64,000 nucleotides of DNA from Glycocaulis alkaliphilus (lineage in GTDB: Bacteria; Pseudomonadota; Alphaproteobacteria; Caulobacterales; Maricaulaceae), in NCBI RefSeq assembly GCF_004000605.1, contig NZ_CP018911.1, positions 1,054,001-1,118,000 of the forward strand, in the 5' to 3' direction. Shown here piece after piece: positions 17,232 through 35,400 of this stretch (the stretch's first letter is position 1; each line of letters begins with the position of its first letter). Made by a program: the position numbers and the translations under genes. The notes beneath the pieces are model-generated. The model was not told the DNA's origin, did not search any database, and was given only the letters and a program-made list of their open reading frames with translations.

Positions 17232-17700
17232 GGATGTTTCTCCGATACTGGCGGTGGACATCCACCTCAATAAGCCCGCGCGGCACACACCCTTGCAAGA
17301 CTTGCGATCAATTGAATGGTAGCGGGGGGGGAGGGTGGCGCAACCGAAAATCGTAGCCGCTGCGGCGGCAATACACGCTGGAAACCCGCAGGCGCCTCTG
17401 AAACCCGTTTCCAGCCCGCCGCCGGCCAACGCTTCACGGACTATCTGGCGAGCCTCTAGACTCATCAGCGCTCGATAGGGTGCGCCCGCCATTCGGCCGG
17501 ATTCTACGACCGGCGTTGATTGTGGCTACTCAAGGCCCTTGCGCCGAGGCTTCAATTTCCGCGGGGTCAGCGCCCAGACCGCAAGAGAGGAATTGCTCAA
17601 AATAGATATTGATATTGAAACTCATTCGCATATTGTGGCTTGATCATTTAGTGGCGCCGCATACGCGGCAGCCTCAGGACGCCGCCAGGAGCCGAGCGCG
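17232..17700. other. Intergenic region between autotransporter and ABC operon
   Basis: A 469-base divergent intergenic region. It should contain the promoters of the autotransporter (minus) and the ABC pair (plus). Apart from the Fur-like site at about 17605-17632, no gene or RNA was recognised. A run of eight G residues occurs at about 17324. Confidence 0.5.
17605..17632. promoter_or_regulatory. Fur-box-like operator upstream of the ABC transporter pair
   Basis: The AT-rich stretch carries two GATATT units followed by GAAACTCATTCGCAT. It resembles Fur-type hexamer repeats and shares TGCGAATGAG (reverse strand) with the much stronger palindrome at 38353-38389. It lies about 70-95 bases before the start codon at 17701. 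The assignment is by resemblance and gene context. Confidence 0.5.
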
Positions 17701-19521: not shown

Positions 19522-21320
19522 ACCCGTCTGCAAATGCCTCACAAACAGCTGCGGCCGCCAGCGAAGTTCGCTCCGATCTGGACAGCCTGAAGCGCATCTG
19601 GGCGCTGGCGGGACCTCAGCGCGGCAAGGTGCTGCGCGGCATCGCGTTCCGCTTTGCCCAGTCATTATCGCTTGGCCTCGCGTTCGGCGCCCTCATCTGG
19701 GTTGTGACCGGGCTGGCAGATGGCCGCCCGCTGAGCTGGGTCTGGATCGCGCAGGTCACCGGTATTGTCGCGCTGTCCCTCGGCGGACAGATACTGTTCG
19801 GCTATCTCTCCGTCACGCATAGCTGGCTTTCCAGCTATCAGCTGGCGGGCGGTCTGCGCCTGTCCATCCTCGACCGGCTCCAGCGGCTGCCAATGGGCTT
19901 CCATCTGTCCAGGCACAAGGGCGACACGGTGGCGGTGCTGACCACCGACATGGAGATGCTGGAGAGTTTCATCTCCGACGCCCTGCCGCGGATCGCACAA
20001 GCCTTCGGCCTGCCGGTGATCGTGCTGGGATACCTTTTCTGGCGTGACTGGACAGTGGCGCTTGCAGCGCTTGCGTCGATAGCGGTAGCTGCGCCGGTCT
20101 TCCTCTGGTCCAGCCGCCGTCTGGCCAAGCTCGGCATCCGCCGCCAGGACATGCAGGCCGAGGCCGGGGCGCGCATGATCGAATATGTCCAGGGCATGGC
20201 CGTCATCCGCGCCTTCAACCGCATCGCCAAAGGCCAGGAGAGTTTCCTTGATGCGCTCAGGGATTTCCGCGACATTTCCGTGCGCATGACCGCCCAGCTC
20301 TCGATGCCGCTCGTCCTGTTCGGCGCCCTGCTCATGCTCGGCGCGCCTCTGGTCTTCGTCGTCGCCAGCGCGCGCTATTTTGCAGGTGATCTCGACGCCG
20401 GGACGCTGACGGCCGCGCTGGTGCTTGTTTTCTCGGTCTACACGCCCTTGCTGGGCCTGATCGCGGTCATGGAACTGACGCGGATGGCGGACGCATCGCT
20501 GACGCGTATCGACCGCATCATGACCGCCGAAACCCTGCCCGAACCGGCGCAGCCGAAAGCGCCGCAGGGTTTCGCCGTCACTTTCGACGACGTGAGCTTC
20601 AGCTATACGCCCGGCGCGCCGGTGCTGGAGAAGATCAGCTTCACCGTGCCGGAACGCACCATGACGGCGATCGTCGGCCCGTCAGGTTCTGGCAAGAGCA
20701 CCATCCTCAACCTGCTGCCCCGCTTCTGGGACGTGAGCGCCGGCCGCATCACCATCGGCGGCGGTGATATCCGCCAGATCAGCGAAGCGCAGCTCAACGC
20801 ACTCATCACAGTGGTTTTCCAGGACGTCTATCTCTTCGCGGGGACGATCTTTGACAATATCGCCTTTGGCCGGGCAGGGGCGAGCCAGGACGAGGTCGAG
20901 GCCGCCGCCCGCGCCGCCCGCGCGCACGATTTCATCACCGCGATGCCGGACGGCTACCACTCCCGCGTCGGAGAAGGCGGAACAACCCTGTCAGGCGGGG
21001 AGCGTCAGCGCATCTCGATCGCCCGCGCCATCCTCAAGGATGCGCCAATTGTGCTGCTTGATGAATCCACCGCGGCGATCGACCCGACCAATGAGCGCGC
21101 GATCCAGGAGGCTCTGGCCCGCATGGTGGCTGACAAGACTCTCATCGTTGTGGCGCACAAGCTGTCTACCATCCAGTCGGCCGACCAGATTCTCGTGCTC
21201 GACCGGGGAGAGATCATCGAACGCGGCGATCATGAGTCATTGCTGGCCCTGAACGGACGCTACAATACGCTCTGGAGTTACCGGGCGCAGGCAGCCCGGT
21301 GGCGCGTCGGGCAGTCATGA
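19518..21320 (+). CDS. Exporter-fold ABC transporter, IrtB/YbtQ-like
   Basis: A 600-residue half-transporter and second half of the heterodimer. The start at 19518 (ATGA overlap with the upstream stop) gives MNPSANASQTAAAA; a longer frame lies inside the previous gene. It has six membrane helices, then an ATPase with Walker A GPSGSGKSTILNLLPRFWD, signature LSGGERQRISIARAIL and Walker B IVLLDESTAAIDP. Together with the preceding gene it resembles YbtPQ/IrtAB iron-siderophore importers. Drug or peptide export cannot be excluded from the fold alone. Confidence 0.88.
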   Translation: MNPSANASQTAAAASEVRSDLDSLKRIWALAGPQRGKVLRGIAFRFAQSLSLGLAFGALIWVVTGLADGRPLSWVWIAQVTGIVALSLGGQILFGYLSVTHSWLSSYQLAGGLRLSILDRLQRLPMGFHLSRHKGDTVAVLTTDMEMLESFISDALPRIAQAFGLPVIVLGYLFWRDWTVALAALASIAVAAPVFLWSSRRLAKLGIRRQDMQAEAGARMIEYVQGMAVIRAFNRIAKGQESFLDALRDFRDISVRMTAQLSMPLVLFGALLMLGAPLVFVVASARYFAGDLDAGTLTAALVLVFSVYTPLLGLIAVMELTRMADASLTRIDRIMTAETLPEPAQPKAPQGFAVTFDDVSFSYTPGAPVLEKISFTVPERTMTAIVGPSGSGKSTILNLLPRFWDVSAGRITIGGGDIRQISEAQLNALITVVFQDVYLFAGTIFDNIAFGRAGASQDEVEAAARAARAHDFITAMPDGYHSRVGEGGTTLSGGERQRISIARAILKDAPIVLLDESTAAIDPTNERAIQEALARMVADKTLIVVAHKLSTIQSADQILVLDRGEIIERGDHESLLALNGRYNTLWSYRAQAARWRVGQS

Positions 21321-21431
21321 TTAACGCTGCACCGAGTTCGGTCCGCTCTCAAAAATCAGGTGGGGTATAGAAGGGGCTACGATCGGCACCACGCCCCGCT
21401 ACCGCATCCTTGCCTGTAAGCGCTGAGGTCC

Positions 21432-21463
21432 GGGAGCCCAGCAACCGCCTGTTGCCCGCTCCC
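21432..21463 (+). terminator. Terminator-like hairpin downstream of the ABC pair
   Basis: GGGAGC (21432-21437) pairs with GCTCCC (21458-21463), and inner GCAAC pairs with GTTGC. It is followed by ATCGTTT, a weak T-run. It would separate the ABC operon from the receptor operon. Confidence 0.4.
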
Positions 21464-21667
21464 ATCGTTTCCGGAGTGGCCGAAAAGCCGTGACGCCGCC
21501 CCGTTTTACGACGGGCGGGCGTGCTCGCGTGCCAGCAATCAGCCGCACTTGGCCGCTTTCAAACAGGCAGTTTGCCGGCAAGGTTTTCTGCTGGACCTCG
21601 CCTTGCGGTCATAGATGCAGCATCCGGGCTGCATCGGTCTGCCCTCCTGACCTCGACTCTCTCCGGT

Positions 21668-21703
21668 GCAATGTTATTACATTGCGAAATGTTATCACAT
21701 TGC
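21668..21703. promoter_or_regulatory. Two abutting Zur boxes
   Basis: Two 18-base palindromes lie directly end to end: GCAATGTTATTACATTGC (21668-21685) and GAAATGTTATCACATTGC (21686-21703). Both match the proteobacterial Zur consensus core ATGTTATNACAT with G and C at the outer ends. They lie 33 bases before the receptor start codon, where a bound repressor would block transcription. They do not resemble the Fur-like sites elsewhere in the window. Confidence 0.85.
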
Positions 21704-21735
21704 AGGCGTGCGATGCACGGGGGATGAGGGACGAT

Positions 21736-24012
21736 ATGATTAGAAAGTTCAACCTTTTAGGTGGATGCGCAATGCTCGCCCTGGCGAGTTCTCCCGCGTT
21801 CGCAGGTACGGATGGGGCCGCGGAAAACGAGGATATTAGCCGGTATCTCGAAACGATCGTGGTGACAGCCACCCGGATGGAAGAGCGGATTTTCGATGTT
21901 CCCGTCTCCGTTTCGGCCATCGACCGCAACCAGATCGAGCGTACCGAGACCAGCACTTTGCGCCAGCTTTACCGCTACATGCCTGGCGTGGACGTCGTCC
22001 GCGACCGAAGGGGCAGGGCCGGGGACGCCAACATTCAGATCCGGGGCATTGGCGGCCGGCGGGTGCTGATGCTGGTCGACGGCGTGCGGCTTCCCGACGG
22101 TTTCGGCGCCGCTGGCATATCCGATCAGGCGCGCGGCAAGCTTGATGTCGAGGCGATCCAGCGCACGGAGGTGGTCCGCGGACCATCCTCGGCCCTCTAT
22201 GGCAGCGACGCTTTGGGGGGTATCGTCGCCTTCAGAACGAAGCGGCCCGGTGATATTCTTGATGAAGGCCAGACGTTCGGTGGTGCGGCAGGCGCCGGCT
22301 ATGACAGCGCGCATGAGAGCTGGTTTGTCACAGGCGATCTCGCAGGCCGGACGGGGCCTGCCGCCGGGTTGATTGGTTTAACCTATCGTCAGGCGTCGGA
22401 GCTGTCGAACAACCACCCTGATTTCAGGCCGGATCCGCAGTCCATCGAAGCATTCAACCTGCTTGCCCGCGGGGAGTTCGACGCAGGACGCGGGCATCTC
22501 TTTGCCGCCACAGCCGAGTGGTTCGTCAGCGAGGTGGAGACAGACAGGCTCTCGGCCAACGTGGCTGTCGGCCCGCCCCCAATCCGGGTGTTTGACGCGA
22601 ATACTGGCGATGACCGTTCTGAACGGTGGCGGCTGGGCGGTTCCTGGCATTGGACTCCGGAGGGCGGTGGCTGGGTCAGCCGCGCTCAGGCCCAGATCGA
22701 CTATCAGGAAAGCCGGACCGAGGAGTACTCGACCTTCACCGTAACCACGGTGGGAATGGGTCCGCCGCAAACCCTCGCACGTGAGGACCGGCTGGATTTC
22801 ACTCAGGAGCAGTGGAGCAGCACCGGTGATGTCCTCATCGAGCCGCCCCACGTCCCGTGGTTGAGCTTGGTTGCCGGCTATGAATGGGTCCGCAAGGAAA
22901 CCGGGCAGTTCGATGACAAGCTTCAGCGCAACACGGTGACAGGCGTGGAGAGCCAGGTCGTGGAAGGCGACACTTATCCGCGAAAACTCTATCCGGACAC
23001 GACGACCAGCATGTATGGCCTGTTCGGTCAGGCGCGGATGGAGCTGTTCGACGGCCGTCTCGTGGTTACCCCGAGCGTACGGTTTGACAGGTATGAACTG
23101 GATATTTCACCCGACGCGCTGTTCGACAATGCCAATGTGCTGGGGTTCCAGCCGGTAGGCTTGCGCGAAACCGCCATCACACCGCGTCTGGGTGCCATCT
23201 GGCGCGCGACAGGGCAGATAAGCCTGTTCGCCAACTACGCCGAAGGATTCAGGGCGCCCGGTCCCGAGCAGCTCAACCGGATCGGGCGGGTGCCTGTCGC
23301 CACTTTCGTGCACGATTTCCTGCCCAATCCGGATCTGGGACCGGAGCGGAGCCGGGGCTGGGAGTTTGGCGCACGGGGCGCGTGGCGTGCCCTGTCTGCT
23401 GAACTGGCGTTGTACGAGAACCGGTACTCTGATTTCATCGATACCGCCCTGATCGAGTTCATTCCTGCTGGCACGATCGGCAACCCGCTGGCGATACGCC
23501 GCTTCCAGTCGGTGAACGTTGACAGCGTGCGGATACGCGGCGTGGAGGCCAGTGCGGCGTTGGATGTCGGCGCTGTTCTCACGGGCGCCGACGGGCTGGT
23601 GCTGCGCGCCGCTGGCTCATGGTCGGAAGGCCGTAACCGCACCGCTGACCGTCCGCTCAACAGCGTCCCTGCGCCCCAGGCGGTGGTCGGCCTGAGCTAT
23701 GATGCGCCCTCGGCGCGGTGGGGCGCGGAAGGGCATGCAACGTTCGTGGCTGAGAAGGACGATGTGGCGCCCATAGAAAGCCAGGGACAGGTAGTCCCCC
23801 ATGTCACCCAAGACGGCTACGCCACACTCGATCTGTCGGCCTGGATCGGTATCGGAACGAACGCACGGGTCAATCTGATGGTCTCCAACGTGTTCGATCA
23901 GCGCTATTGGGAATGGCCCGATCTGGTCAACCTGCCTGCGACCGATGCCAGCCTGGGGCGGTATACGGCGCCCGGGCGCACCGTGGCGGTCAGTCTGCGC
24001 ACCCGCTTCTAG
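21736..24012 (+). CDS. TonB-dependent receptor with heme-receptor signature (HmuR-like)
   Basis: A 758-residue outer-membrane receptor. The ATG at 21736 follows GAGGGA at good spacing and yields a signal peptide ending SSPAFAG; ATG 21724 is an alternative. The TonB box ETIVVTATR lies near residue 37, the plug follows (IRGIGGRRVLMLVDGV, VVRGPSSALYGSDALGG), then a 22-strand barrel ending in RTRF. It carries FRAP (from F505) and NPDL (from N531) with a His (H526) between them, the arrangement typical of HemR/HmuR heme receptors. Upstream palindromes are of Zur type, so zinc rather than iron may control it. It leads a five-gene operon with a CobN-like protein. Confidence 0.92.
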   Translation: MIRKFNLLGGCAMLALASSPAFAGTDGAAENEDISRYLETIVVTATRMEERIFDVPVSVSAIDRNQIERTETSTLRQLYRYMPGVDVVRDRRGRAGDANIQIRGIGGRRVLMLVDGVRLPDGFGAAGISDQARGKLDVEAIQRTEVVRGPSSALYGSDALGGIVAFRTKRPGDILDEGQTFGGAAGAGYDSAHESWFVTGDLAGRTGPAAGLIGLTYRQASELSNNHPDFRPDPQSIEAFNLLARGEFDAGRGHLFAATAEWFVSEVETDRLSANVAVGPPPIRVFDANTGDDRSERWRLGGSWHWTPEGGGWVSRAQAQIDYQESRTEEYSTFTVTTVGMGPPQTLAREDRLDFTQEQWSSTGDVLIEPPHVPWLSLVAGYEWVRKETGQFDDKLQRNTVTGVESQVVEGDTYPRKLYPDTTTSMYGLFGQARMELFDGRLVVTPSVRFDRYELDISPDALFDNANVLGFQPVGLRETAITPRLGAIWRATGQISLFANYAEGFRAPGPEQLNRIGRVPVATFVHDFLPNPDLGPERSRGWEFGARGAWRALSAELALYENRYSDFIDTALIEFIPAGTIGNPLAIRRFQSVNVDSVRIRGVEASAALDVGAVLTGADGLVLRAAGSWSEGRNRTADRPLNSVPAPQAVVGLSYDAPSARWGAEGHATFVAEKDDVAPIESQGQVVPHVTQDGYATLDLSAWIGIGTNARVNLMVSNVFDQRYWEWPDLVNLPATDASLGRYTAPGRTVAVSLRTRF

Positions 24013-24031
24013 CGGGAGAAGGAGAGGGGCG

Positions 24032-27000
24032 ATGATCCGGCGGATCGTGTGGGCAGGTGGCGGTGCCATTGTGCTGGCTGGCCTGCTGGCCGGGGCCTGG
24101 TTCGCCCTGCAGGCCTATGTGCTCCCGACCCGGGTGGTGCTGGTCAACTACCCGGGATTTACCGCCGCGCGCATCGCCTCGGAGGCCGAAGGACAATGGG
24201 TGCGCGTGGAATCCGTCCCGCTGGAGTCAGTGGAAAGCGGGCGCGGAGCGGCACTCGTTGTGGTGTTCGGCCGGGGTGTGTCCCTTGATGCCGGCCAGCA
24301 GCGCGCGCTGCGATCCATGGCGCGCTCGGGTAGCGCGGTTTATGTGGAGGCACCCACCGATCCCAATACTGACGTTACCAGCGTCACCGGCGAGCGGCTG
24401 GACCGTATCGGCGCGTATCTGGCATTCGGCGGCGGGCCTAACTACCGCAATCTGCTCGCTTATGCGCGCCGCGAACTCGATGGCAAATCAATCGCGGCTG
24501 CCGAGGCCGGGCCGCCTCAGCCCATCCCACGTGACGTGCTGTTCGTGCGTGACAGTGATGAGGTGTTTGAAAGTGTGGAGGCGTTCAGGGCCCGTGAAGG
24601 TGCCCGCCCGGCCCGCGAGCCTGCGGGGCGGCGACTGGCCCTCGTCACCAGCGTGCCAGGCCCTTTCAACGCCAACCGTGATCATATAGATGCGATCATC
24701 AGCGTGTTTGAGGAGCGGGGCCATGAGGTCTACCCCCTGGCTAGCGCAACCCGGCGGCTTGATTTCCTGCGCGAGATCGACCCCGCCGCAGTGATCTACA
24801 TGCCCCATGGCGCGCTCACCATTGATCAACGCGACGAGGCGATCGCCTGGCTTGCCGAGAACGACATACCTCTTCTGACCCCGGTCAGTGTGTTCGAACT
24901 TCACGATGACTGGATCGATGATCCGCGCGGCCTGTCCGGATCGTTGTTGAGCATGAATGTCGTCCTGTCCGAACTTGACGGCGGCGTGGCTCCGTTCGCC
25001 ACTGTGGCCCAGTTTCCGGGCGAGGACGGGCTGGCGATCTTCGAGGCCGTCCCTGACCGCCTCGCGCGCTTCGCCGAGCGGGTGGAACGCTACCTGACGC
25101 TGAAGGATCAGGACAATGCCGACAAGCGCGTCGCCATATTCTTCCTGAAGGGTCCAGGAGAAGGTGCGATGAGCGCAGCCAATATGGAGGTCGCGCCCTC
25201 GCTTCATAATTTGCTGCTTGCCATGCGCGAGGCGGGATACGATCTCGGCGATCTGCCGGGCGACCCGGCGGTGTTCGAGGCCATGGTGATGTCCCAGGCG
25301 CCCGTGCTGGGCTCCTATGCGGCTGGCGACATGGCCCGGTGGCTGGCAGAAGATGCTTCTGAATGGGTAGAGGCCGCCGACTATGCGCGGTGGTGCGAAG
25401 AGTTGCTGGGCGCGGTGATGTGCGCCCGCGTCGACGCCGAGCATGGCCCGGCGCCGGGGCGCTACATGGTCTCGCGTGACCGCTCTGCCCTGGCGGTCGC
25501 CGCTGTGAGGTTCGGCAATGTCGTGATCCTTCCCCAGCCGCTGCCCGGTATCGGGGAGGACGAGTACCGTCTGATCCACGGCGCGGAAACCGCTCCTCCC
25601 CACCCCTATGTGAACGCGTATCTGTGGGCACGCGAGGGCTTTGGGGCCGACGCCCTCATCCATTTCGGCACGCACGGCAGCCTGGAGTTCACGCCCGGCA
25701 AGCAGGTGGCGCTGTCGGGACGCGACTGGCCGGATGCGTTGATAGGCGATCTGCCGCACGCCTATGTCTACACAATGAACAATGTAGGCGAGGCCATCAT
25801 CGCCAAGCGCCGGGTCTACGCGGCCATCCTGTCGCACCTGACCCCGCCCTTCTCCGAAAGCGGCCTCACCGACGAGCTGGGCGCCCTGCAGCGCGCGCTC
25901 GATGGGCTGCGCAGGGCAGAGGGCGCGACCCGCGCCGAACGGGAATCAGAGGTGCGTGAACTGGCCGGCCGGCTCGAGCTCACCGGAGCGCTGGCCCTGC
26001 CCGTGGACGGCCCCTGGAGCGACCGGGACCTCCTTACCCTCGCCAATTTCGTGGAGGGCCAGGAGACGGCCCGGATCACGCTGGGCCTTTATACGTTGGG
26101 AGCGGGCTATCCCGGCGACCGGCTGGCGGAAACCGCCCGGCAGATCGCCGCCCCTGCCTTGGCCGCTGCTCTGCTGGAGCTGGACCGCAGCCGGGGGCTG
26201 GATGTATCCGGGGCCGAGGCGGACGAGACGCTGTTCCGTGCCCGTTACCGCACCCGCGCCGATGCTGCTGTAGATGCAGTCATTGGCGGCGCCGATCCCG
26301 CCGGGGAAATCGCACGAATTGTTAGTTCTGATGAACGGGCGCGCGCCGTCGAACTGGCCGCCGCGATGGCAGGACCAGGTGAAGGGGCGCTGGTGCGTGG
26401 CTTTATCGGGCTGGGCGGCCCGCGCGGGCGGGGTGCGCCGCAGGAAGAGACACGGGGGGTAGAACGCGCCACGCTGCTGGCCTTGCTCGCTCCGGTGATG
26501 GCGGATCCTGACAAACGCGAGCTGGTTGAAAGCTGGCGCTCCGAGCAACAGCTTTCGCGGGCGCTGGACGGGCTGGATCCCGAGCGCCGGGCCCGCGCCG
26601 AAACGGTGGCCCGTGCGATCCCGGCCATGGCCCGCGCCTTGCGGCTGACGGCTGAGCCGGACATGCGCGCCCTGCTTGAGGCGCTGCGGACACCCGATAC
26701 GCAGGCAGAGTTCCGCCGCCTTCTGGATCATCCCGCTCTGGAGGCCGAAATTGTCTCTGCCCGTCAGGAACGGCTGGCGGATGTAGGGGCGGCCGCACTT
26801 GATCCTGAACGCAGGACGTGGCTGGAAAGAGCGCAGGCGGACGATTTTGCAAACACGCTGACCGGACTGGACGATGCGGTTCTTTCCGAAGTGGAGACAG
26901 CCTTGGCCTTCTACGTGCGCACGGGCGATCTGGAGGCCGGGCTTCGCGCTGCGGGCGCGGATACGCAGACCCGCCGTGCCGTGCTCTCCGGACGCGAGGC

Positions 27001-28762
27001 CGCGTCGTCCGCACTGAGAGAGATCGCGTCCGAACGCCGGACGCGCGAGGGACGTGACCGCGCCTTTATCGACGCGGTGGGCCGTATTGAGAGGCTCATC
27101 ACCGCCATCCCGGATACGCTGGACGCCCTGGCGCGGAGCGGCGATCTGGAGATCAGACAGATTCTGCGCGCCCTGGACGGTGGCTATATCGAACCCTCTG
27201 TCGGCGGAGACCCGATCATATCGCCTGCGGCTCTGCCCACGGGGCGCAACATGGTGTCTATCGACGCCGAGCGCACTCCCAGCGAGGCGGCGTGGCGTGT
27301 CGGCGGCCAGCTCGCCGACCGTCTGATAGAACGCCATCTGGACTTGCACGGCGCATACCCGGAGAAGGTCGCTTTCACGCTCTGGCCGGGTGACTTCATC
27401 CAGACCGAAGGCGCAACTATTGCGCAAATCCTGCACCTTCTGGGTGTCGAGCCGGTGCGCGACCCGTTCGGACGTGTCAATGACATCCGTCTGGTGCCGC
27501 AGTCGGAACTCGGACGGCCGCGAGTGGATGTGGTGGTCCAGACCGCCGGTCAGATACGCGATCTTGCCGCGAGCCGGCTTGAGCTGATCCAGAAGGCCGT
27601 GGCAATGGCTGCGGCCGACGGTGCCAACCCGGTGTCGCGCAGTACGGAGGCCGTCGAGCGCGCCCTTCTGGCGGAGGGGCTGTCTCCGCTCGAGGCCCGC
27701 AGGCTTGCGACCAGCCGGATATTCGGCGGGGTCAATGGCAATTACGGCACGGCTATCATGGGATTGGTCGAAAGCGGCTCCCAGTGGGAAGAGGCCGGCG
27801 AAATCGGTCGCCAGTATCTGCGCAACATGAATGCACGCTATGGCGACGCAGAAGGCTGGGGCGCGGACACGCCCGGCCTGTTTGCTGCCGCCCTACAGGG
27901 CACCGACGTGATCATCCAGCCGCGCGAAAGCAATGTGAACGGCCCGCTTTCGCTCGACCATTTCTACGAGTTCATGGGTGGGCTGAGCCGGGCTGTCGAG
28001 ACCGCAACCGGGCGGGAGGCAGATGCTTATTTCAACGATTTCCGCACGCCGGGTGCGGCACGGGTAGAGACGCTGGAATCTGCCATTGCCGAGGAGTTGT
28101 TCGGTACGCTGCTCAATCCGCGCTACATCGCCGCCATGCAAGAGGGCGGCGCTTCGTCCGCTGCGGTGTTCGCCGAAACTTTCCGCAATGCTTATGGCTG
28201 GGAGGCGATGCGGCCGGCGGCGATCCAGGAAGGCACGTGGGACAGGTTTTATGACGTGTATGTCGATGACAGTCTCGAGATGGGCGTGCGCGAGTTCTTC
28301 GAACGCGCCCATCCGCAATCGCTGCAGGAAATGACTGCGGTTATGCTAGAAACGGCGCGCAAGGGGATGTGGGACGCCGCGCCCGAGCGTATTGAGGCGC
28401 TGGCCGTTCTTCACGCTGAACTCATAGAGACACACGGTGCGGGCTGTTCGGGGTTTGTGTGCGGCAACCCACAGCTGCGCGACTATATCGAAAGTCACCT
28501 GTCTGAAGCGGCAGCCCCCCGCTATCGTGAGGCGTTGGACACCGCGACACGCGATCCCGGCGCTGCGAGCGCGTTGGTCCTGTCCGAGCGGGAGCGCCGG
28601 GCGCCTGAAACTGGCGGTGCGCCGCCGCAGCGCCGCCAGGGCGGTGATGACCAAGGCAATGACGCTACGCTTCCGCTCGCGGCGATGGCTGCCGCAGGCG
28701 GCGCACTCGCCTTGGCAATCGCTCTGGGGCTTCTGGCCCTGCGCCGGCGCCGGACGGGGTGA
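24032..28762 (+). CDS. Membrane-anchored CobN-like chelatase-family protein (HmuS-like)
   Basis: A 1576-residue protein. An N-terminal membrane anchor (about 1-30, starting MIRRIVWAGGGAIVLAG; GGAGAGG precedes the start) and a C-terminal membrane helix (about 1547-1570, followed by LRRRRTG) flank a large domain of the CobN/BchH family. The family motif appears as IHFGTHGSLEFTPGKQ (I543-), with candidate ligand residues H544 and H548, followed by WPDALIGDLPHAYVY and AKRRVYAAILSHLTPP. A late segment reads CSGFVCGNPQLRDY. The region of about 620-1040 is extra relative to core CobN and predicted helical. No CobS/CobT or MgChl I/D partners occur here, so B12 cobalt chelation is unlikely. The gene order matches HmuS of HmuRSTUV, which acts on heme or a related metallated tetrapyrrole. 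Confidence 0.9.
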   Translation: MIRRIVWAGGGAIVLAGLLAGAWFALQAYVLPTRVVLVNYPGFTAARIASEAEGQWVRVESVPLESVESGRGAALVVVFGRGVSLDAGQQRALRSMARSGSAVYVEAPTDPNTDVTSVTGERLDRIGAYLAFGGGPNYRNLLAYARRELDGKSIAAAEAGPPQPIPRDVLFVRDSDEVFESVEAFRAREGARPAREPAGRRLALVTSVPGPFNANRDHIDAIISVFEERGHEVYPLASATRRLDFLREIDPAAVIYMPHGALTIDQRDEAIAWLAENDIPLLTPVSVFELHDDWIDDPRGLSGSLLSMNVVLSELDGGVAPFATVAQFPGEDGLAIFEAVPDRLARFAERVERYLTLKDQDNADKRVAIFFLKGPGEGAMSAANMEVAPSLHNLLLAMREAGYDLGDLPGDPAVFEAMVMSQAPVLGSYAAGDMARWLAEDASEWVEAADYARWCEELLGAVMCARVDAEHGPAPGRYMVSRDRSALAVAAVRFGNVVILPQPLPGIGEDEYRLIHGAETAPPHPYVNAYLWAREGFGADALIHFGTHGSLEFTPGKQVALSGRDWPDALIGDLPHAYVYTMNNVGEAIIAKRRVYAAILSHLTPPFSESGLTDELGALQRALDGLRRAEGATRAERESEVRELAGRLELTGALALPVDGPWSDRDLLTLANFVEGQETARITLGLYTLGAGYPGDRLAETARQIAAPALAAALLELDRSRGLDVSGAEADETLFRARYRTRADAAVDAVIGGADPAGEIARIVSSDERARAVELAAAMAGPGEGALVRGFIGLGGPRGRGAPQEETRGVERATLLALLAPVMADPDKRELVESWRSEQQLSRALDGLDPERRARAETVARAIPAMARALRLTAEPDMRALLEALRTPDTQAEFRRLLDHPALEAEIVSARQERLADVGAAALDPERRTWLERAQADDFANTLTGLDDAVLSEVETALAFYVRTGDLEAGLRAAGADTQTRRAVLSGREAASSALREIASERRTREGRDRAFIDAVGRIERLITAIPDTLDALARSGDLEIRQILRALDGGYIEPSVGGDPIISPAALPTGRNMVSIDAERTPSEAAWRVGGQLADRLIERHLDLHGAYPEKVAFTLWPGDFIQTEGATIAQILHLLGVEPVRDPFGRVNDIRLVPQSELGRPRVDVVVQTAGQIRDLAASRLELIQKAVAMAAADGANPVSRSTEAVERALLAEGLSPLEARRLATSRIFGGVNGNYGTAIMGLVESGSQWEEAGEIGRQYLRNMNARYGDAEGWGADTPGLFAAALQGTDVIIQPRESNVNGPLSLDHFYEFMGGLSRAVETATGREADAYFNDFRTPGAARVETLESAIAEELFGTLLNPRYIAAMQEGGASSAAVFAETFRNAYGWEAMRPAAIQEGTWDRFYDVYVDDSLEMGVREFFERAHPQSLQEMTAVMLETARKGMWDAAPERIEALAVLHAELIETHGAGCSGFVCGNPQLRDYIESHLSEAAAPRYREALDTATRDPGAASALVLSERERRAPETGGAPPQRRQGGDDQGNDATLPLAAMAAAGGALALAIALGLLALRRRRTG

Positions 28763-29433
28763 TGCAGACCGCTCTCTTCGCCGCTGCTTTGCTGTCCTCA
28801 GCCGGGCTTTGGGCGGTGGCTGCGGCCGCGCGAAGCCGGGCCGTACCGGCAGTGGCGGTAATCGTTGTACTGACCACCGTACTGACGCTAGCGCCTGCGG
28901 GGCAATGGCTTGCCGGACAACCTGCCGATCTTGTTGCCCGTCTGGCTTCTCAGCCGCTGGCCATAGACCTTCTGGCCTTGGTCCTGAGCGCAGAGGCCGC
29001 TCTGGGTATCTGGCTCATCTGGCGTGTCTCCGGCGGGGGAGGGTGGAAAGAGCGAGCTGCGTTGCTCGTGCCATGGCCGTCGGCGGCGCTCGCGCCTCTG
29101 CTGGCGGCTCAGTGGATGATGGCGCAGGGGCCGAGGATGGAGCTGGGGCTGGCCGCCGCCCTCGCGTTTGCCGTCTGCGGAGCGGCATATCTGGTTCTGC
29201 TCGGCGCCGGGCATTTGATGCGACGGCTCGATGCTGACGGATTTGTCGAGTTCCTGCTGCTGGCCCGCCTGGCCCCGGCGATCACAGTGGCGGCGCTGGT
29301 TGCCATGGACCGTCACGCGCCTGCGCCTCACCTGGAATTCGAGCCGGCAGCATTCATCATCCTGTCCGCTCTGGCCTGCGTGATTGCCGTGGCGGGTTTC
29401 ATCAGACACAAAGCCCAAGGAGGCCGCAAATGA
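28762..29433 (+). CDS. Polytopic membrane protein of the HmuT position
   Basis: A 223-residue protein with about six to seven hydrophobic segments and no soluble domain. The ATG at 28762 shares its A with the upstream stop (TGATG); a GTG one codon earlier is an alternative. Its 3' end overlaps the next start (ATGA). In HmuRSTUV-type clusters the gene between the CobN-like and ExbB-like genes encodes such an inner-membrane protein of unknown role. It may couple the CobN-like protein to the proton channel; that is inference from position. Confidence 0.82.
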   Translation: MQTALFAAALLSSAGLWAVAAAARSRAVPAVAVIVVLTTVLTLAPAGQWLAGQPADLVARLASQPLAIDLLALVLSAEAALGIWLIWRVSGGGGWKERAALLVPWPSAALAPLLAAQWMMAQGPRMELGLAAALAFAVCGAAYLVLLGAGHLMRRLDADGFVEFLLLARLAPAITVAALVAMDRHAPAPHLEFEPAAFIILSALACVIAVAGFIRHKAQGGRK

Positions 29434-30020
29434 GCATGATTGGCCAATTGCTGTACTGGATCACGACCGGCCTGCTGATTCCGGTGGTTGCCCTGCTTTT
29501 GGTCTTCCTGCTCAGGGCGCTGGCGCTGGTCGGGTCAAGCGTCGCCACCGCGCTGGAACGCCGGCGCTATGGTGAGCAAATCGATGCGGTTCTGAAGCGC
29601 AAGGCTCCGGCGGAGGCGGATTTCGCCGCGCTGTCCCTGCCGAAATCGGCGCCTCTTGCAGGGACTATTGCGGAACTGGCCGCGCTCGGCGGTGTGCCAG
29701 TGCATGCCCGCCGGATACTGTCAGAGCTTGAAATCCATCATGACCGCAGCGTGTCCACGGCCCGGATCCTGTCCCGCACCGGGCCCATGCTGGGATTGAT
29801 GGGCACACTAATCCCGCTGGGCCCGGCTCTGATGGGACTGGCGGAGGGCGATCTGGCCAGCCTGGCAGAGAACATGCTGGTGGCGTTCGCCACGACGGTC
29901 ATCGGGCTTCTGATTGGGGCCATAGGCTTCTCGGTCCAGCAGAGCCGTCAGCGTTGGGCGGCCCAGGATATGGCGCGCGCCGAGTTCATTGCCTCGGTTG
30001 CGGCGGAGGAAAAGGACTGA
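29430..30020 (+). CDS. MotA/TolQ/ExbB-family proton-channel protein (HmuU-like)
   Basis: A 196-residue protein beginning with a strong AGGAGG site at good spacing. It has three membrane segments; the pair in the C-terminal half (TGPMLGLMGTLIPLGPAL and NMLVAFATTVIGLLIGAIGF) is the MotA/TolQ/ExbB signature. It overlaps both neighbours (ATGA upstream, TGATG downstream). It probably forms an energy-transducing complex with the following DUF2149 protein, analogous to ExbB-ExbD. A canonical exbB-exbD-tonB set occurs separately at 36-38 kb, so this pair is likely dedicated to the CobN-like system. Confidence 0.88.
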   Translation: MSMIGQLLYWITTGLLIPVVALLLVFLLRALALVGSSVATALERRRYGEQIDAVLKRKAPAEADFAALSLPKSAPLAGTIAELAALGGVPVHARRILSELEIHHDRSVSTARILSRTGPMLGLMGTLIPLGPALMGLAEGDLASLAENMLVAFATTVIGLLIGAIGFSVQQSRQRWAAQDMARAEFIASVAAEEKD

Positions 30021-30361
30021 TGGCGCGGCATCGGAAATTTCTCGGATCGGGCGATGACGATGATCCTCTCTCAGGCCTGACCAATCTGTTCGACCTGGCC
30101 ATGGTGTTCGCAGTTGCGCTGCTAGTAGCGCTGGTCCAGCGGCTGGAGATCAGCGAACTGCTCACCGAGCGCGACGTCACCATCGTGAAGAATCCCGGAA
30201 CAGAGCAGATGGAGATTATCATCAAGCGCGGCGCGGAAATCTCCACCTATTCGGTTACTGATCTTTCTGAGCAGGGTGGCGAGCAGGGCCGCCGCGTAGG
30301 CAGTGCTTACGAGCTTGAAGATGGCACGATCATCTATGTTCCTGACGGCGGGGGGCCTTGA
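30020..30361 (+). CDS. DUF2149 protein (HmuV-like, ExbD-like partner)
   Basis: A 113-residue protein with one membrane helix (about 24-42, LFDLAMVFAVALLVALVQR) after a short acidic cytoplasmic N-terminus, and a small soluble C-terminal part. This topology is that of ExbD/TolR. The start ATG shares its A with the preceding stop codon. DUF2149 proteins are known as the last gene of hmuRSTUV-type clusters. It ends the operon that starts at 21736. Confidence 0.85.
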   Translation: MARHRKFLGSGDDDDPLSGLTNLFDLAMVFAVALLVALVQRLEISELLTERDVTIVKNPGTEQMEIIIKRGAEISTYSVTDLSEQGGEQGRRVGSAYELEDGTIIYVPDGGGP

Positions 30362-30690: not shown

Positions 30691-31206
30691 TTGCTGCTGG
30701 TGGCCTATAGGAAGCACGAAAAAGACCTTCTGCGTTTCCTGAGGCGGCGGCTGGGCTCGGCGGCCGCGGCCGAGGACATCGCCCATGATCTCTATCTGAA
30801 ACTCTACCGTATGCCGGAGACCGAGCCACCCCGGGACGGCCGCAGCTATCTGTTCCGCATGGCGGCTAATCTCGCGACCGACCATATGCGCGTGGAAAAG
30901 CGCCGAAGCGAGATTCGCGCAGAAATGGGCCATACGCTGCGGACCTCTGAGATGGTGGTCACACCGGAGCGTGCGGCGCTGGCGCGCGCGGAGTTAGCCT
31001 TCCTTGAAGCCGAGGCGAGCCGGCTCCCGGCGCGCTGCCGGCGCATCTTCTATCTGAGCCGGTATGAAGGCTGGTCGCATGTTCGCATCGCCGAGGCGTT
31101 GGGCGTCGGACTCACGACCGTCCACAAGGACCTGAAACTGGCCATGTCGACCCTGCTTGCCGCGAGGCGGCGGTTCCATGGCCAGGATCCCGATAGCGTC
31201 GGCTGA
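30691..31206 (+). CDS. fecI: FecI-type ECF sigma factor
   Basis: A 171-residue iron-regulated ECF sigma factor. The start is a TTG preceded by AAGGA; the frame is open upstream only to 30609 and has no ATG in it. Region 2 shows LLRFLRRRLGSAAAAEDIAHDLYLKL and SYLFRMAANLATDHM; region 4 shows FYLSRYEGWSHVRIAEALGV followed by TVHKDL. It is followed by fecR and an STN-containing receptor, the classic order for cell-surface signalling: ligand-loaded receptor, FecR, FecI, then transcription of the receptor operon. Confidence 0.92.
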   Translation: MLLVAYRKHEKDLLRFLRRRLGSAAAAEDIAHDLYLKLYRMPETEPPRDGRSYLFRMAANLATDHMRVEKRRSEIRAEMGHTLRTSEMVVTPERAALARAELAFLEAEASRLPARCRRIFYLSRYEGWSHVRIAEALGVGLTTVHKDLKLAMSTLLAARRRFHGQDPDSVG

Positions 31207-31272
31207 TCCCTTGGCCGCGCAGGTTGGCAGGGCCTGACTCGTCTTTCCTTTTGTAACCCGCTGCGAGCCGAT

Positions 31273-32298
31273 ATGAACCCTTCGCCAGAGCCCGACCTTC
31301 AAGATGACATAGATTCCGCTGCGCAGGACTGGATGCTGCAGCTGGCATCGGCCGAGCCGGACTGGGCCGGGTTCCAGCGATGGCGGGACGCGGATGTGCG
31401 TCACGCCGCTGCGTTTGACGAACTGCAAGGCTTGTGGTCGCAGCTTGCCGCGCTCAAGCCCGCTTTCGCGTCGGCCAAACCGTTTGGCTGCGAGCAGCGC
31501 GGTGAGCCGTGTACCCGCGCCGGGGCGCGGCGATTCTGGCGCATTCCTCGGCCATCATCGTGGATTCCGAAGCCGGCCTTGGCAGGTCTTGTGGTGGCCT
31601 GCTTCATCCTCGGTGCCGTCCTGGGCCCGAGAGCCGTCCAGGACATCTCTGCTGATCATGTGGCGGCGATCGGCATACCCACCCTTGTGGAACTTGCCGA
31701 CGGTTCCACTGTGTGGCTGAACACCGACGCCGCCATCAATGTCCGTTACAGGGCGAACCAGCGCGAGGTGCGGCTGCTCAGGGGCGAAGCCCGGTTCGAG
31801 GTTGCCGGCGATCCGTCCCGGCCTTTCTCGGTGTGGGCGGCGGGTGGACGCGCCACGGCCCTCGGCACCGTATTCACCGTCCGGCGCGAGGGCGCCGAGA
31901 CACTCGTGTCCGTGAGCGAGGGGCGGGTAGCGCTGAGCTCGCCGGGGCGCGCCGCTTCATCTACTTCAGGCGGGGAGGGGGCCGTCATCCTGACGGCAGG
32001 GCAGGCCGCCCGTTACCGCACAGGGCGCGCGCCCGGGCCGGTCATGGCCGCAGTGCCGTCACCCGATCTCTGGCGCCGCGGCGTCATCGCGATTGACGAC
32101 ATGACCCTTGCCGAAGCCTTTGCCGAGATGGATCGCTACAGAGCCGGCCGAATTCTGCTCCTGGCCGACATATCACGCGCTCAGTCAGTCACAGCCCGGA
32201 TCGCGATTGACGAGATCGAAAGCGGTCTGGATGCGCTTGCAGCCGCCGAAGGCCTTCATGTCACGCGGATTTCGAACCGCCTCGTGCTCATCCGCTGA
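31273..32298 (+). CDS. fecR: FecR-family anti-sigma/signal-transfer protein
   Basis: A 341-residue single-pass inner-membrane protein. The cytoplasmic N-terminal DUF4880-type domain (AAQDWMLQLASAEPDWAGFQRWRDAD) contacts FecI. A membrane helix lies at about residues 102-122. The periplasmic FecR domain follows (VELADGSTVWLNTDAAINVR, VRLLRGEARFEVAGDPSRPF), and a C-terminal STN-like segment (from about MTLAEAFAEMDRY) contacts the receptor's signalling domain. It sits between fecI and the STN receptor, on the same strand. Confidence 0.93.
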   Translation: MNPSPEPDLQDDIDSAAQDWMLQLASAEPDWAGFQRWRDADVRHAAAFDELQGLWSQLAALKPAFASAKPFGCEQRGEPCTRAGARRFWRIPRPSSWIPKPALAGLVVACFILGAVLGPRAVQDISADHVAAIGIPTLVELADGSTVWLNTDAAINVRYRANQREVRLLRGEARFEVAGDPSRPFSVWAAGGRATALGTVFTVRREGAETLVSVSEGRVALSSPGRAASSTSGGEGAVILTAGQAARYRTGRAPGPVMAAVPSPDLWRRGVIAIDDMTLAEAFAEMDRYRAGRILLLADISRAQSVTARIAIDEIESGLDALAAAEGLHVTRISNRLVLIR

Positions 32299-32377
32299 CC
32301 TCCGGTTCTTCGCAGCTGCAAAAACTTTCCGCAAACGGCACCGATGAGGCGCGCCGTGATCGTCATATATGAAAGTA

Positions 32378-32396
32378 GCGATTGAGACGCAGTCGC
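32378..32396. promoter_or_regulatory. Fur-like or FecI-promoter region upstream of the fusion receptor
   Basis: GCGATTGAGACGCAGTCGC is an imperfect palindrome (GCGA/TCGC outer, TG/CA inner arms) about 35 bases before the receptor start. It resembles the other GCGAATGAG-type sites but is weaker. It may be a Fur operator. Confidence 0.4.
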
Positions 32397-32430
32397 AAAT
32401 CCATGATGATCGTTTGGAAAGGGGCTTACA

Positions 32431-35400
32431 ATGACGAAGAAGGCAGCAGCCAACGCATGCCATGAGATGGGCGAAAGGCGCGGGCGCATCGGTGTGAGGC
32501 TGCTCACGGGCACTGCACTGGCCGCGACAGCCGCGTTGATCCTGATGGGGCATGCGCACGCTCGGGCCGATGAAACCGCCCCTGCAGCGCAAACGGCCGA
32601 AGCGCCGGTGGAGGTCTCCATATCCCCGCAGCCGATGGCGTCAGCCCTGAATGCGCTGTCCGAGCAGACGGGCCTGTCCTTCGTCTACGCCACACGCGAT
32701 CTCGAAGGCGTTTCCTCCCGCGGCGCGTCAGGCCGCATGACCGCACGCGAAGCGCTCGACCGCTTGCTGGCCGGCAGCGGATTCACGGCACGCCAGGTAT
32801 CGGCACGCACGGTGGCGATAGAGCCGGTGGCGTCCGCCCAGGTTCAGGATGGAGCCATCCAGCTCGGTGCGGTGCGCGTGGAAGGAACAGCCGACACTGT
32901 GATGGCGGACCCTTCGGGCGAGCCCTACCGGACATCGGGATCTTCCGCCTATATCTCGCAAGAACGGGTTCAGCGTTTCCGGGGTACTTCGGCGGGTGAT
33001 TTTCTCAGCGGCGTCACCGGGGTGGTCAATGGCGACAATCGCAATTCCGGTGCGCTGGATGTCAATATCCGCGGCATGCAGGGCATGGACCGTGTTCCGG
33101 TCGTCATTGACGGATCCCTGCAGCAATCGACGGTCTACCGCGGCTATTCGGGCGTTGCGGGGCGGACATATCTCGATCCTGATCTGATAGGCTCGGTCAG
33201 GATCGAGAAGGGGCCCAGCGCCCAGGTCGACGGCGTCGGTGCGACTGGCGGCGTGGTCCGGGTCGACACAATAGGGATCGACGATCTGGTGGCCCGGGAC
33301 GGTGAGTTCGGCTACCGCTTCCGCGCAGGTCTTGTTGGAAACACCGTGAGTCCGCCGGCTATTGGTGCGCTGGGCACCGGCAACGGGACGCCGGAGCGGT
33401 TCGACCGTCCCGAATTGCTTGAATTCAATAGTGGCAGCGTCAGCCTGGCCGTTGGCCGTCGGTTTGATCGCTTCGATATTGTGGCGGCGTTCGCCCGGCG
33501 CGATGTTGGCAATTATTTCGCCGGTGAGCGAGGGGAGGTGCCGCCTGGTGGCGGCACAAGCGTAACGGGTGGAGCGTTGCGGCGCTACAATCTCGGAGAG
33601 GAAGTGCTGAGCACGTCTCAGGACAACACATCCTATCTGCTGCGCGGCATCGTCCGGCCTAGTGACGATATGGCTCTGGACGTGTCGTATATGCGCTATG
33701 AGAGCGATTTCGGCGAAATGATGCCGTCGCAGATTGTCCGCTTTGGCGGCGCGATGCAAGCACCGCTTAGCCGCACCGAAGTTGACACCTACTCGGCCCG
33801 CTATCGCTGGCAGCCCCATGATCGCCGGTTTGTCGATCTGGAAGCCGGCTTCTGGGCGACACAAAACTTCACCAGCATCGAGACATTGTACAGGTATGAA
33901 CTGGCCAACGGCAACGTCCTTAATAGCGATGTAGCCTATCAAAGCCAGTCTGACAGATGGGGTGTGAACCTCGCCAACACGTCCCGCTTGACGACAGTGA
34001 TTGGGGCTCTCCAGCTGAACTATGGCGGTTCTTACACCCGGGAAAGGCTCTCACCGCCGGACGGCTGGGAGGATTACAAGGATAACTCGGACTATACGAA
34101 TTTTGTCGAGCCACGTGACGGATGGCGCAATGAATACAGCGCTTTCATTGCAGGCGAACTTCGGCCGCAGGACTGGCTGACCCTCAGTGGCGCGCTGCGT
34201 TATACGGAAACGGAATCCCAAGACTATAACGAGGTCGATATTTCCCTCGGTTCCGGACAAGGCCGTGTCACCGGCTACAATCACGAGAAAAATAGTGCGC
34301 TGGCGCCGATGCTCTCCATCCTCGTCGAGCCGGTATCGGGCCTTCAGGTCTATGGTCGCTATGCCGAAGCGACACGCGCGCCCAGCCTCTTTGAATCCAC
34401 GACTGGTTTCTCTTTCTATCCTGACCCGCGCAATCCGGTTCGCCCTGAACGGACGCGGAACACTGAGTTTGGGCTCAATTATCAGAGAGGGTCTCTGTTT
34501 GCGGACGAAGACCTGCTTCAGCTCAAGCTGGCATTCTTCCATAATGTGGTGGACGATTACATCACGCGCGGCACCGACGCGGACGGCTTTCCGGTGCCCA
34601 TGGAAAATATCGACAGAGCCGAGTTCCAGGGTGTAGAGGCGTCGGGGCGGTATGATATGGGCCGCGTTTACGCCGAGTTCGGGGCAACAATCTACACCGA
34701 CAAGCAATTTTGCGATCAGGACGGTGTTTGCCGCGAAGGTAACACCATTAACAGTTACATTCCGGCGCATATTCCTCCGGAGTTCAGCGCCTCTGCGACC
34801 TTTGGGCTGCGGTTGTTCGATGAAAGGCTCGATACCGGCCTGCGCTATACGCATATGGGCGAGCGCAACACCGACTTCGTCACCTGGGGCGGCTCAGTGA
34901 GCGTGATTGAATGGGGCGCTTACGACGTCGTGGACCTCTTTGCCACATACCGGGTCAATGACAGTATTTCGTTGGACGTTGCGGTCGATAACCTGACTGA
35001 CCGCTACTACACTGACGCGCTTTCGCTCGGACTTATGCCATCGCCCGGGCGTACGCTGCGGCTGGGCGTGACCGCCGCATACGGGGCGGCGGCCGATGCG
35101 GAGTCCCGGCTGGTCCGGCGCGCCTCGATCGACAGTCTTCTTGATGCTGGCGGGCTTGGGGACCAGTTTGCGGGAGATTGGTCAGGGTTCTATCTGGGGG
35201 TTCAGGGGGGGCATGACTGGATCTCCAGCCGGGGTATGACGACCGACGCGGACGGCACAGCCAGCGTTACCGTGGCGTCTGAATCGACCGATGTCGCCGC
35301 TCGGGGCTCGGCGTTGGGCGTTTACGCAGGGCGCAACTGGCAAATCGGGAGCCGATGGGTGATCGGCATCGAAGGCGACGTGGCCCGGCTGAACGCCACT

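Follow-up and report, generated by a model that had tools for sequence, protein, structure and literature searches.

Gut bacteria use the HmuRSTUV gene set to pull iron from heme. In Bacteroides thetaiotaomicron and Porphyromonas gingivalis, the HmuS protein of this set is described as a heme dechelatase (PMC12583661, PMC13227078), and relatives in Bacteroides fragilis were named BtuS (PMC6460266). As described in PMC12583661, HmuS frees iron from heme in an NADH-dependent reaction, Met-79 and His-254 hold a heme of unclear role and His-538 is essential for turnover; the topology reported in PMC13227078 places helices at both ends of the protein. The hmuYRSTUV operon of P. gingivalis has the order receptor-CobN-T-ExbB-DUF2149 (PMC10434189), which is likewise annotated in Bacteroides finegoldii and Prevotella nigrescens. 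A further relevant system, PA1922-PA1925 of Pseudomonas aeruginosa, is reported to be Zur-controlled (PMC4542158, PMC8531726) and to be raised when zinc is short (PMC4542158, PMC8531726, PMC11761036). Here, we analyzed a five-gene operon of Glycocaulis alkaliphilus that resembles both systems. It lies within a stretch of 64,000 nucleotides (contig NZ_CP018911.1, positions 1,054,001 to 1,118,000), which is referred to as the window and is numbered from its first letter. We consider it probable that this operon encodes a Zur-repressed, TonB-dependent uptake system, a zinc-dedicated branch of HmuRSTUV that imports a zinc complex to be stripped in the periplasm. Among the papers listed by searches of an open-licence library, we noted none that links a HmuS relative to Zur; the words HmuS, zinc and Zur occur in PMC3668242 and PMC4771312.

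The operon occupies positions 21736-30361, as delineated by open reading frames (ORFs) and Pfam matches, and has the following features:

21668-21685, no strand: predicted Zur-type operator 1, GCAATGTTATTACATTGC (8 of 9 pairs; rank 3 in 64 kb with a Caulobacter Zur matrix; kept in G. profundi)
21686-21703, no strand: predicted Zur-type operator 2, GAAATGTTATCACATTGC, abutting operator 1 (7 of 9 pairs; rank 2 in 64 kb with the same matrix; kept in G. profundi)
21736-24012, plus strand: TonB-dependent receptor, heme/hemoglobin type (Pfam Plug and barrel; TIGR01786 and TIGR01785 over cut-off; PhuR 262 bits)
24032-28762, plus strand: CobN-like protein of 1576 residues, sister to HmuS by residues and tree (PF02514, 907 bits; HmuS structure 9d26, 1031 bits)
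26294-27046, plus strand: Met-poor insertion by Met count, about residues 755-1005 of the CobN-like protein, at the place of the Met-rich insertion of HmuS
28759-29433, plus strand: polytopic membrane protein at the HmuT place (no Pfam or NCBIfam family)
29430-30020, plus strand: MotA/TolQ/ExbB family protein at the HmuU place (PF01618 over cut-off)
30017-30361, plus strand: DUF2149 protein at the HmuV place (PF09919, 102 bits)

The original prediction of an operon with overlapping or near-overlapping junctions was borne out, since at three junctions the genes share a few bases, and the single gap, between the receptor and the CobN-like gene, measures 19 bp. The predicted membrane helix at each end of the CobN-like protein was recovered as hydropathic helices at residues 13-31 and 1552-1570. 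Also as anticipated, none of the five products matched an ATP-binding cassette (ABC) importer or binding-protein family in Pfam or NCBIfam. The description of the operon as HmuRSTUV-like proved right and could be sharpened, as the CobN-like protein is nearer to HmuS than to the other CobN-like proteins sampled.

The CobN-like protein is the sole PF02514 (CobN-Mg_chel) match in the 3.02-Mb genome, and the match runs from position 2 to position 1089 of the 1090-position model. Among solved structures, HmuS is nearest to the protein, followed at a distance by ChlH (360 bits) and CobN (338 bits). The protein reached 613 of 1248 and 477 of 822 bits with the curated CobN models, and it stayed below the cut-off of all nine CobN/magnesium-chelatase NCBIfam models listed. 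We placed it in a tree of 35 proteins, built with a quick method and rooted at the midpoint, for which a warning on long branches and uneven composition was issued that named the window protein among the rows concerned. In this tree, seven full-length proteins formed one group (SH-like approximate likelihood ratio test, 99), namely those of the window, G. profundi, a Woeseiaceae genome, genome G557, Splendidivirga, a Cytophagales metagenome-assembled genome (MAG) and Aureibacter. These zinc-type proteins grouped with three HmuS-type proteins at a support of 97 and with a fourth, L105, at 100, and 24 other CobN-like proteins fell outside. Judged by this tree, the clade of the window protein is sister to the HmuS heme dechelatase. 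The comparison with HmuS and CobN suggested by the original prediction was thereby obtained, but PA1923, which it also named, lay outside the sample. Partial zinc-type members were found in Flexithrix and in a MAG labelled Thalassovita, the operon of which is of Bacteroidota make-up. The partial rows L032 and L033 were omitted from the tree but are included in the residue counts below, and L030 and L113 were counted once.

With the HmuS-type protein L097, the window protein shares 34% identity in the N-terminal half and 49% in the C-terminal part. The window protein, compared with B. thetaiotaomicron HmuS by phmmer, falls outside the criterion given in PMC12583661, which combines at least 50% identity to that protein with a complete six-gene hmu operon. 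A structure model of residues 30-760 had a mean predicted local distance difference test (pLDDT) value of 65, and its top Foldseek match was again 9d26 (E-value 1.2e-42, template modelling score 0.49, root mean square deviation 19.5). The model supports kinship with HmuS, not the geometry of the heme site.

At the level of single residues, those shown to matter for HmuS chemistry were kept and the heme-binding part was changed, because His-538 is retained and Met-79 is replaced by Arg. Specifically, the window protein retains the turnover-site motifs of HmuS, with His548 in HFGTHG and His1310 in LSLDHFYEFMGG, and Asp1309, His1310 and Glu1313 are all present. The equivalent of His-538 was found in all eight zinc-type rows that reach it, and Asp-1208, His-1209 and Glu-1212 in all seven that extend to this region. 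The heme ligand His-254 is preserved as His259 and is kept in 9/9 zinc-type proteins. The other ligand, Met-79, corresponds to Arg81 (codon 24272-24274); Arg occupies this column, within FGRG, in 9/9 zinc-type proteins, as compared with Met in three of the four HmuS-type proteins and Leu in the fourth. Arg-256 is Ala in the three Proteobacterial zinc-type members and Arg in the six others, and Gln-299, a conserved heme-site residue of HmuS, aligns by eye with Met in the window protein. The insertion spans 279 residues between flanking columns in the window protein and contains four Met. In seven zinc-type rows it measured 266-283 residues with 1.4-3.2% Met, and the Woeseiaceae protein has a short version of 73 residues with two Met. 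In three HmuS-type proteins the insert held 7.8, 12.5 and 16.5% Met, and in the outlying L105 2.1% of 48 residues. Judged by sequence, the change of a heme-ligand residue speaks against a simple use of heme.

The window locus shares with HmuRSTUV the receptor-S-T-U-V order, and with HmuS the class I chelatase body, the HFGTHG and LSLDHxxEFMGG motifs, the end helices and His-254. However, it differs in the absence of an HmuY gene from the window, in Arg for Met-79, in a Met-poor insert and in a promoter of the Zur type instead of iron control. With PA1922-PA1925 it has in common a TonB receptor, a CobN-like protein and small partners under Zur, the latter being predicted for the window operon; PA1923, by contrast, is followed by an ExbD homolog and a hypothetical protein, as described in PMC4542158. 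The Proteobacterial receptor/MotA/DUF2149/CobN modules fell outside the HmuS clade in our tree, and PA1922-PA1925 may be taken as a fair analogy for the window operon. CobN cobaltochelatase and ChlH magnesium chelatase belong to the same superfamily, but the window protein departs from them in its end membrane helices and in scores below the model cut-offs, and its five-gene operon contains no cobalamin-synthesis gene. Like ZnuD-type zinc receptors, the operon receptor is TonB-dependent and, by prediction, under Zur; unlike ZnuD, it is of the heme-receptor type, and the ZnuD-like protein of this genome is encoded by a separate gene beside zur.

The promoter of the operon carries the two end-to-end 18-base palindromes at 21668-21703 that had been predicted, although neither of them is perfect (8/9 and 7/9 self-complementary pairs). 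The pair ends 32 bp before the receptor ATG. Only one other site in the 64 kb, a GC-rich one at 49678, consists of abutting 18-mers with at least 7/9 pairs each. An exact search of the 3.02-Mb genome for the core ATGTTATNACAT gave two matches, both in this promoter, and none for the reversed pattern. Moreover, G. profundi retains both boxes as GCAATGTTATTACGTAGC and GCAATGTTATCACATTGC, with 33/36 bases conserved as compared with 84/169 of the other aligned columns. A Zur matrix built solely from four Caulobacter sites (PMC4176598) scored the operon sites at 14.0 and 13.6, which are ranks 2 and 3 of 63,982 window positions. A sigma-70 promoter scan of 21300-21800 found none. Fur control was rejected, since the best match of the promoter to a Fur consensus was 11/19, a score attained at 68 window positions.

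The genome contains two FUR genes, which are told apart by NCBIfam scores. One is Zur-like, with 109.2 bits to the Zur model (curated cut-off 167) and 23.8 to the best Fur model, and the other is Fur-like, with 108.9 bits to the Fur model, below the curated cut-off, and 23.9 to Zur. Next to the Zur-like gene, in divergent orientation, lies a receptor gene with long His/Asp runs, the best model of which is ZnuD (341 bits versus a cut-off of 950). The intergenic region between the two holds GCAACGTTATACTGTTGC, which recurs in weaker form after 18 bp, a spacing identical to that of the operon; GCAAY-GTTAT...RTTGC is common to operator 1 and this box, and by eye a related box pair is present in the zur/ZnuD intergenic region of G. 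profundi. The pattern GTTATNNYRTWRC gave 13 strand matches at 12 places of the genome, versus 7 strand matches for the reversed control. Six of these places are zinc-linked, namely the operon (two), zur/ZnuD, a COG0523 GTPase (cobW, 169.7 bits), a Zip-like gene with ZrgA downstream, and DUF3299. The Zip-like match lies below the Pfam cut-off (22.4 of 35.1). The boxes at these zinc genes are similar to those of the operon, not identical, and with the Caulobacter matrix the four other zinc promoters scored 19.9-25.2, above every window position. The original prediction of Zur in preference to Fur was supported by the Zur-like gene, the similar boxes at other zinc genes and the poor Fur match. 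We therefore regard Zur control of the operon, as predicted from these sites, as highly likely.

Bacteroidota zinc-type operons carry a different palindrome, TGCAAYNNNRTTGCA, mostly in pairs 35-40 bp apart. The Cytophagales MAG, Aureibacter and Splendidivirga have two copies each, Flexithrix has one exact and one imperfect copy, and G557 has one imperfect copy; in Aureibacter, another lies before a neighbouring receptor/ABC/DUF3526 cluster. In 26 loci (171.5 kb, two of them overlapping) there were 12 exact occurrences, eight at such operons or clusters and four at three FUR loci. When up to three mismatches were allowed, 16 occurrences were found, as compared with a mean of 1.4 and a maximum of 3 in 20 shuffles. 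Four HmuS-type loci (64 kb) showed no exact copy and one with up to three mismatches, which was in coding sequence. The string was written after the operon sites had been seen, and the FUR loci, which were fetched by their FUR domain, are the independent part of this comparison. The FUR loci concerned are L074, L083 (twice) and L085, which also has folE, and their boxed FUR genes may encode Zur. In Splendidivirga, the operon belongs to a gene run with an ABC-2/DUF3526 set, MerC and COG0523. An ABC-2 type set, znuGHI, is described as a Zur target in Caulobacter (PMC4176598).

With the models of two heme/hemoglobin receptor families, the receptor of the window operon scored above the curated cut-off, and it carries His526 (codon at 23311) between FRAP and NPDL. 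We take this FRAP/NPxL interval to be where Proteobacterial heme receptors place a ligand. A His between FRAP-like and NPxL-like motifs was present in 8/8 zinc-type receptors aligned, unlike the three HmuR-type receptors sampled (0/3). The residue keeps a planar, tetrapyrrole-like cargo in play but is no proof of it.

These observations are consistent with the following scheme. Zinc starvation would relieve Zur repression and switch the operon on. The heme-receptor-like outer-membrane protein would then bring a zinc complex into the periplasm, the likeliest being a tetrapyrrole with bound zinc or some other planar or organic chelate of the metal, and the membrane-anchored HmuS-like protein would extract the zinc at the site where HmuS acts on iron. 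Proton-motive force may reach the receptor or the dechelatase through the MotA/ExbB and DUF2149 proteins. The freed zinc would reach the cytoplasm via a separate carrier, as proposed for FeoB with the iron that HmuS releases. A candidate for this inner-membrane zinc carrier is encoded by the boxed Zip-like gene, because ZnuA was not found in the genome by a search that was positive in 11/14 control genomes. That the operon serves zinc acquisition in one way or another is very likely, and the cargo and chemistry outlined here have somewhat less than an even chance of being correct.

Conceivably, the operon could instead be an ordinary heme-iron system like HmuRSTUV that has come under Zur, or Zur plus Fur, in which heme is dechelated and the zinc control is incidental. 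This would explain why the receptor passes heme/hemoglobin cut-offs with PhuR as its best solved kin, and why the gene order and the dechelation-site residues match HmuS. Yet we consider it unlikely in view of the Arg at Met-79 in 9/9 zinc-type proteins, the missing Met-rich insert and the lack of a good match to a Fur consensus in the promoter, as well as the zinc-linked neighbours in Splendidivirga and the absence of the Bacteroidota box from the four HmuS-type loci.

Uptake of zinc ions, of zinc and cobalt ions, or of a metallophore has rather better prospects than a heme-iron system, but still falls well short of the dechelatase scheme in our estimation. Here the CobN-like protein would be a non-enzymatic periplasmic carrier or gate, handing metal from the receptor to an inner-membrane carrier. 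PA1922-25 is indeed discussed as an importer of non-chelated zinc in PMC10393844, and related modules lie near nickel-hydrogenase genes in Runella and near a cobamide gene in Trichlorobacter, so that they are not tied to one tetrapyrrole. However, the catalytic His pair of HmuS and LSLDHxxEFMGG are kept in the clade (VSLDH in Woeseiaceae), and they would be needless for a mere carrier. A reaction in the forward direction, in which zinc or cobalt is loaded into a periplasmic tetrapyrrole as part of a zinc-sparing answer, is very improbable. CobN and ChlH insert metals, and membership of the class I chelatase family would fit such an activity. Nevertheless, the end helices and the topology reported for HmuS in PMC13227078 point to the periplasm, away from ATP-driven partners of the CobN/ChlH kind, and the loading of a scarce metal during starvation makes little sense.

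Several observations weigh against zinc-controlled dechelation as the function of this operon. With the Caulobacter matrix, the operon sites are weaker than the four other zinc promoters, and they are outscored by a coding position, 2087 (ORF 1397-2581; 18.3), which is the top of the window. The strict GTTA-N5-TAAC motif of Proteobacteria given in PMC4176598 is replaced by GTTA-N5-TTGC in both operators, so that the operon box, though Zur-like, deviates from the Caulobacter motif in the second half-site. At zur/ZnuD, the matrix favours the second copy over the one resembling the operon box. Six of the 12 GTTATNNYRTWRC places have no zinc link, and the excess over the control pattern is 13 versus 7 strand matches. 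Three of these places (293486, 2980378 and 2986430) are inside ORFs, 2882532 overlaps a start codon and 1781263 lies between two ORFs without known zinc link; the site before a Cys-rich peptide ORF scored 20.5 and the other five 4.9-13.4. The box patterns were written after the sites had been seen, and because a matrix-like pattern served to select the four other zinc promoters, their scores are partly built in. Among the Bacteroidota FUR loci, exact TGCAAYNNNRTTGCA occurs at just 3/18 and at up to three mismatches at 5/18, the six best-scoring loci (L067-L071 and L077) having none at that tolerance, and the NCBIfam scores of the boxed FUR genes are weak and leave their identity as Zur undecided. 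In Woeseiaceae, the CobN-like gene is not directly preceded by a receptor gene, and the locus lacks a strong box (best score 5.9). No box was found at L033, where genes ahead of the receptor extend almost to the beginning of the sequence and the operon may start beyond it. Finally, the FRAP-His was absent from the HmuR-type receptors sampled and hence is no proof of a heme-like cargo.

Orthologs of the CobN-like protein (83-100% identity) were detected in 2/299 genomes of the order, its own genome and G183 (83%), the latter being one of five other genomes of the genus sampled, and weaker CobN-like matches were present in 57 further genomes. In the phylum of the window, 2/398 genomes matched at an E-value of 1e-90, its own and one remote at 33%. 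In the class of the Woeseiaceae genome, 7/369 matched at 1e-75, namely that genome and six others at 34-36% across the C-terminal part. Of 395 genomes from the phylum to which Splendidivirga belongs, four passed 1e-130, two zinc-type and two HmuS-like. Because the ortholog is rare and patchily distributed, horizontal transfer is suggested. A small protein that has a signal-like N-terminus, His residues and CxxC is encoded ahead of the zinc-type genes in Splendidivirga (L118:4448-4759, CTLC), G557 (L103:4506-4880, CSVC) and Woeseiaceae (L155:10485-10781, CSVC); those of Splendidivirga and G557 matched no Pfam family. In genome G218, of the same family as the window, two CobN-like genes adjoin each other (L111:8486-16513), one of them without the HFGTHG histidine.

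Two plasmids carry comparable modules. That of Runella slithyformis (L098) encodes a receptor, a NicO-like protein (below cut-off), ExbB, DUF2149 and CobN among hyp and hydrogenase genes, and that of Trichlorobacter lovleyi (L099) a receptor-ExbB-DUF2149-CobN set with DUF2162 near BzaF, hinting at nickel and cobalt versions. Considered with the heme setting of HmuRSTUV and the zinc settings of PA1922-25 and the window, they suggest a chassis adaptable to different metals. We tentatively propose a periplasmic zinc dechelatase, a class I chelatase branch spread over Bacteroidota and Proteobacteria under two different zinc operators and, in a wider form, a metal-neutral receptor-CobN-ExbB-DUF2149 chassis for iron, zinc, nickel and cobalt. 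As a sister clade of HmuS that shares its catalytic residues but has an altered heme site and an operator of the zinc type, this branch offers a direct, testable case of a metal switch. It may have a bearing on CobN-like genes that carry a cobaltochelatase annotation in zinc-starvation data, for example PA1923 of P. aeruginosa, and it suggests that zinc complexes serve as a source of nutrients.

The protein at the HmuT place is 72% identical to its G. profundi counterpart, 37% to that of Woeseiaceae and 10-17% to seven others; a structure model of it was discarded (mean pLDDT 52). Two ABC exporter-fold proteins are encoded directly upstream on the strand of the operon (17701-21320). As an inner-membrane importer for the system they were set aside, since G. 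profundi does not have them next to its operon. Solved structures related to the first one include those of the siderophore importers YbtPQ and IrtA, ranked below ABCB-type exporters. Elsewhere in the genome, the ZrgA gene is split over two frames (L158:4948-5702, minus strand), reflecting either a broken gene or a sequencing error. The Zur-box-like site AATGTTATATCATTAC at genome positions 1021405-1021420 (pattern match 1021408), with a matrix score higher than all window positions, lies about 100 bp before an ORF for a 66-residue Cys-rich peptide with a signal-like start (L005:1618-1818), which could be a candidate zinc-responsive secreted peptide. Directly 3′ of the operon, Pfam matches identified an ECF sigma factor, FecR and a 1195-residue TonB receptor (30691-36018), the latter with a second outer-membrane barrel (OMP_b-brl) at its C-terminus. 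A 2101-residue ORF at 11187-17492 has many repeated segments and an autotransporter-like reading.

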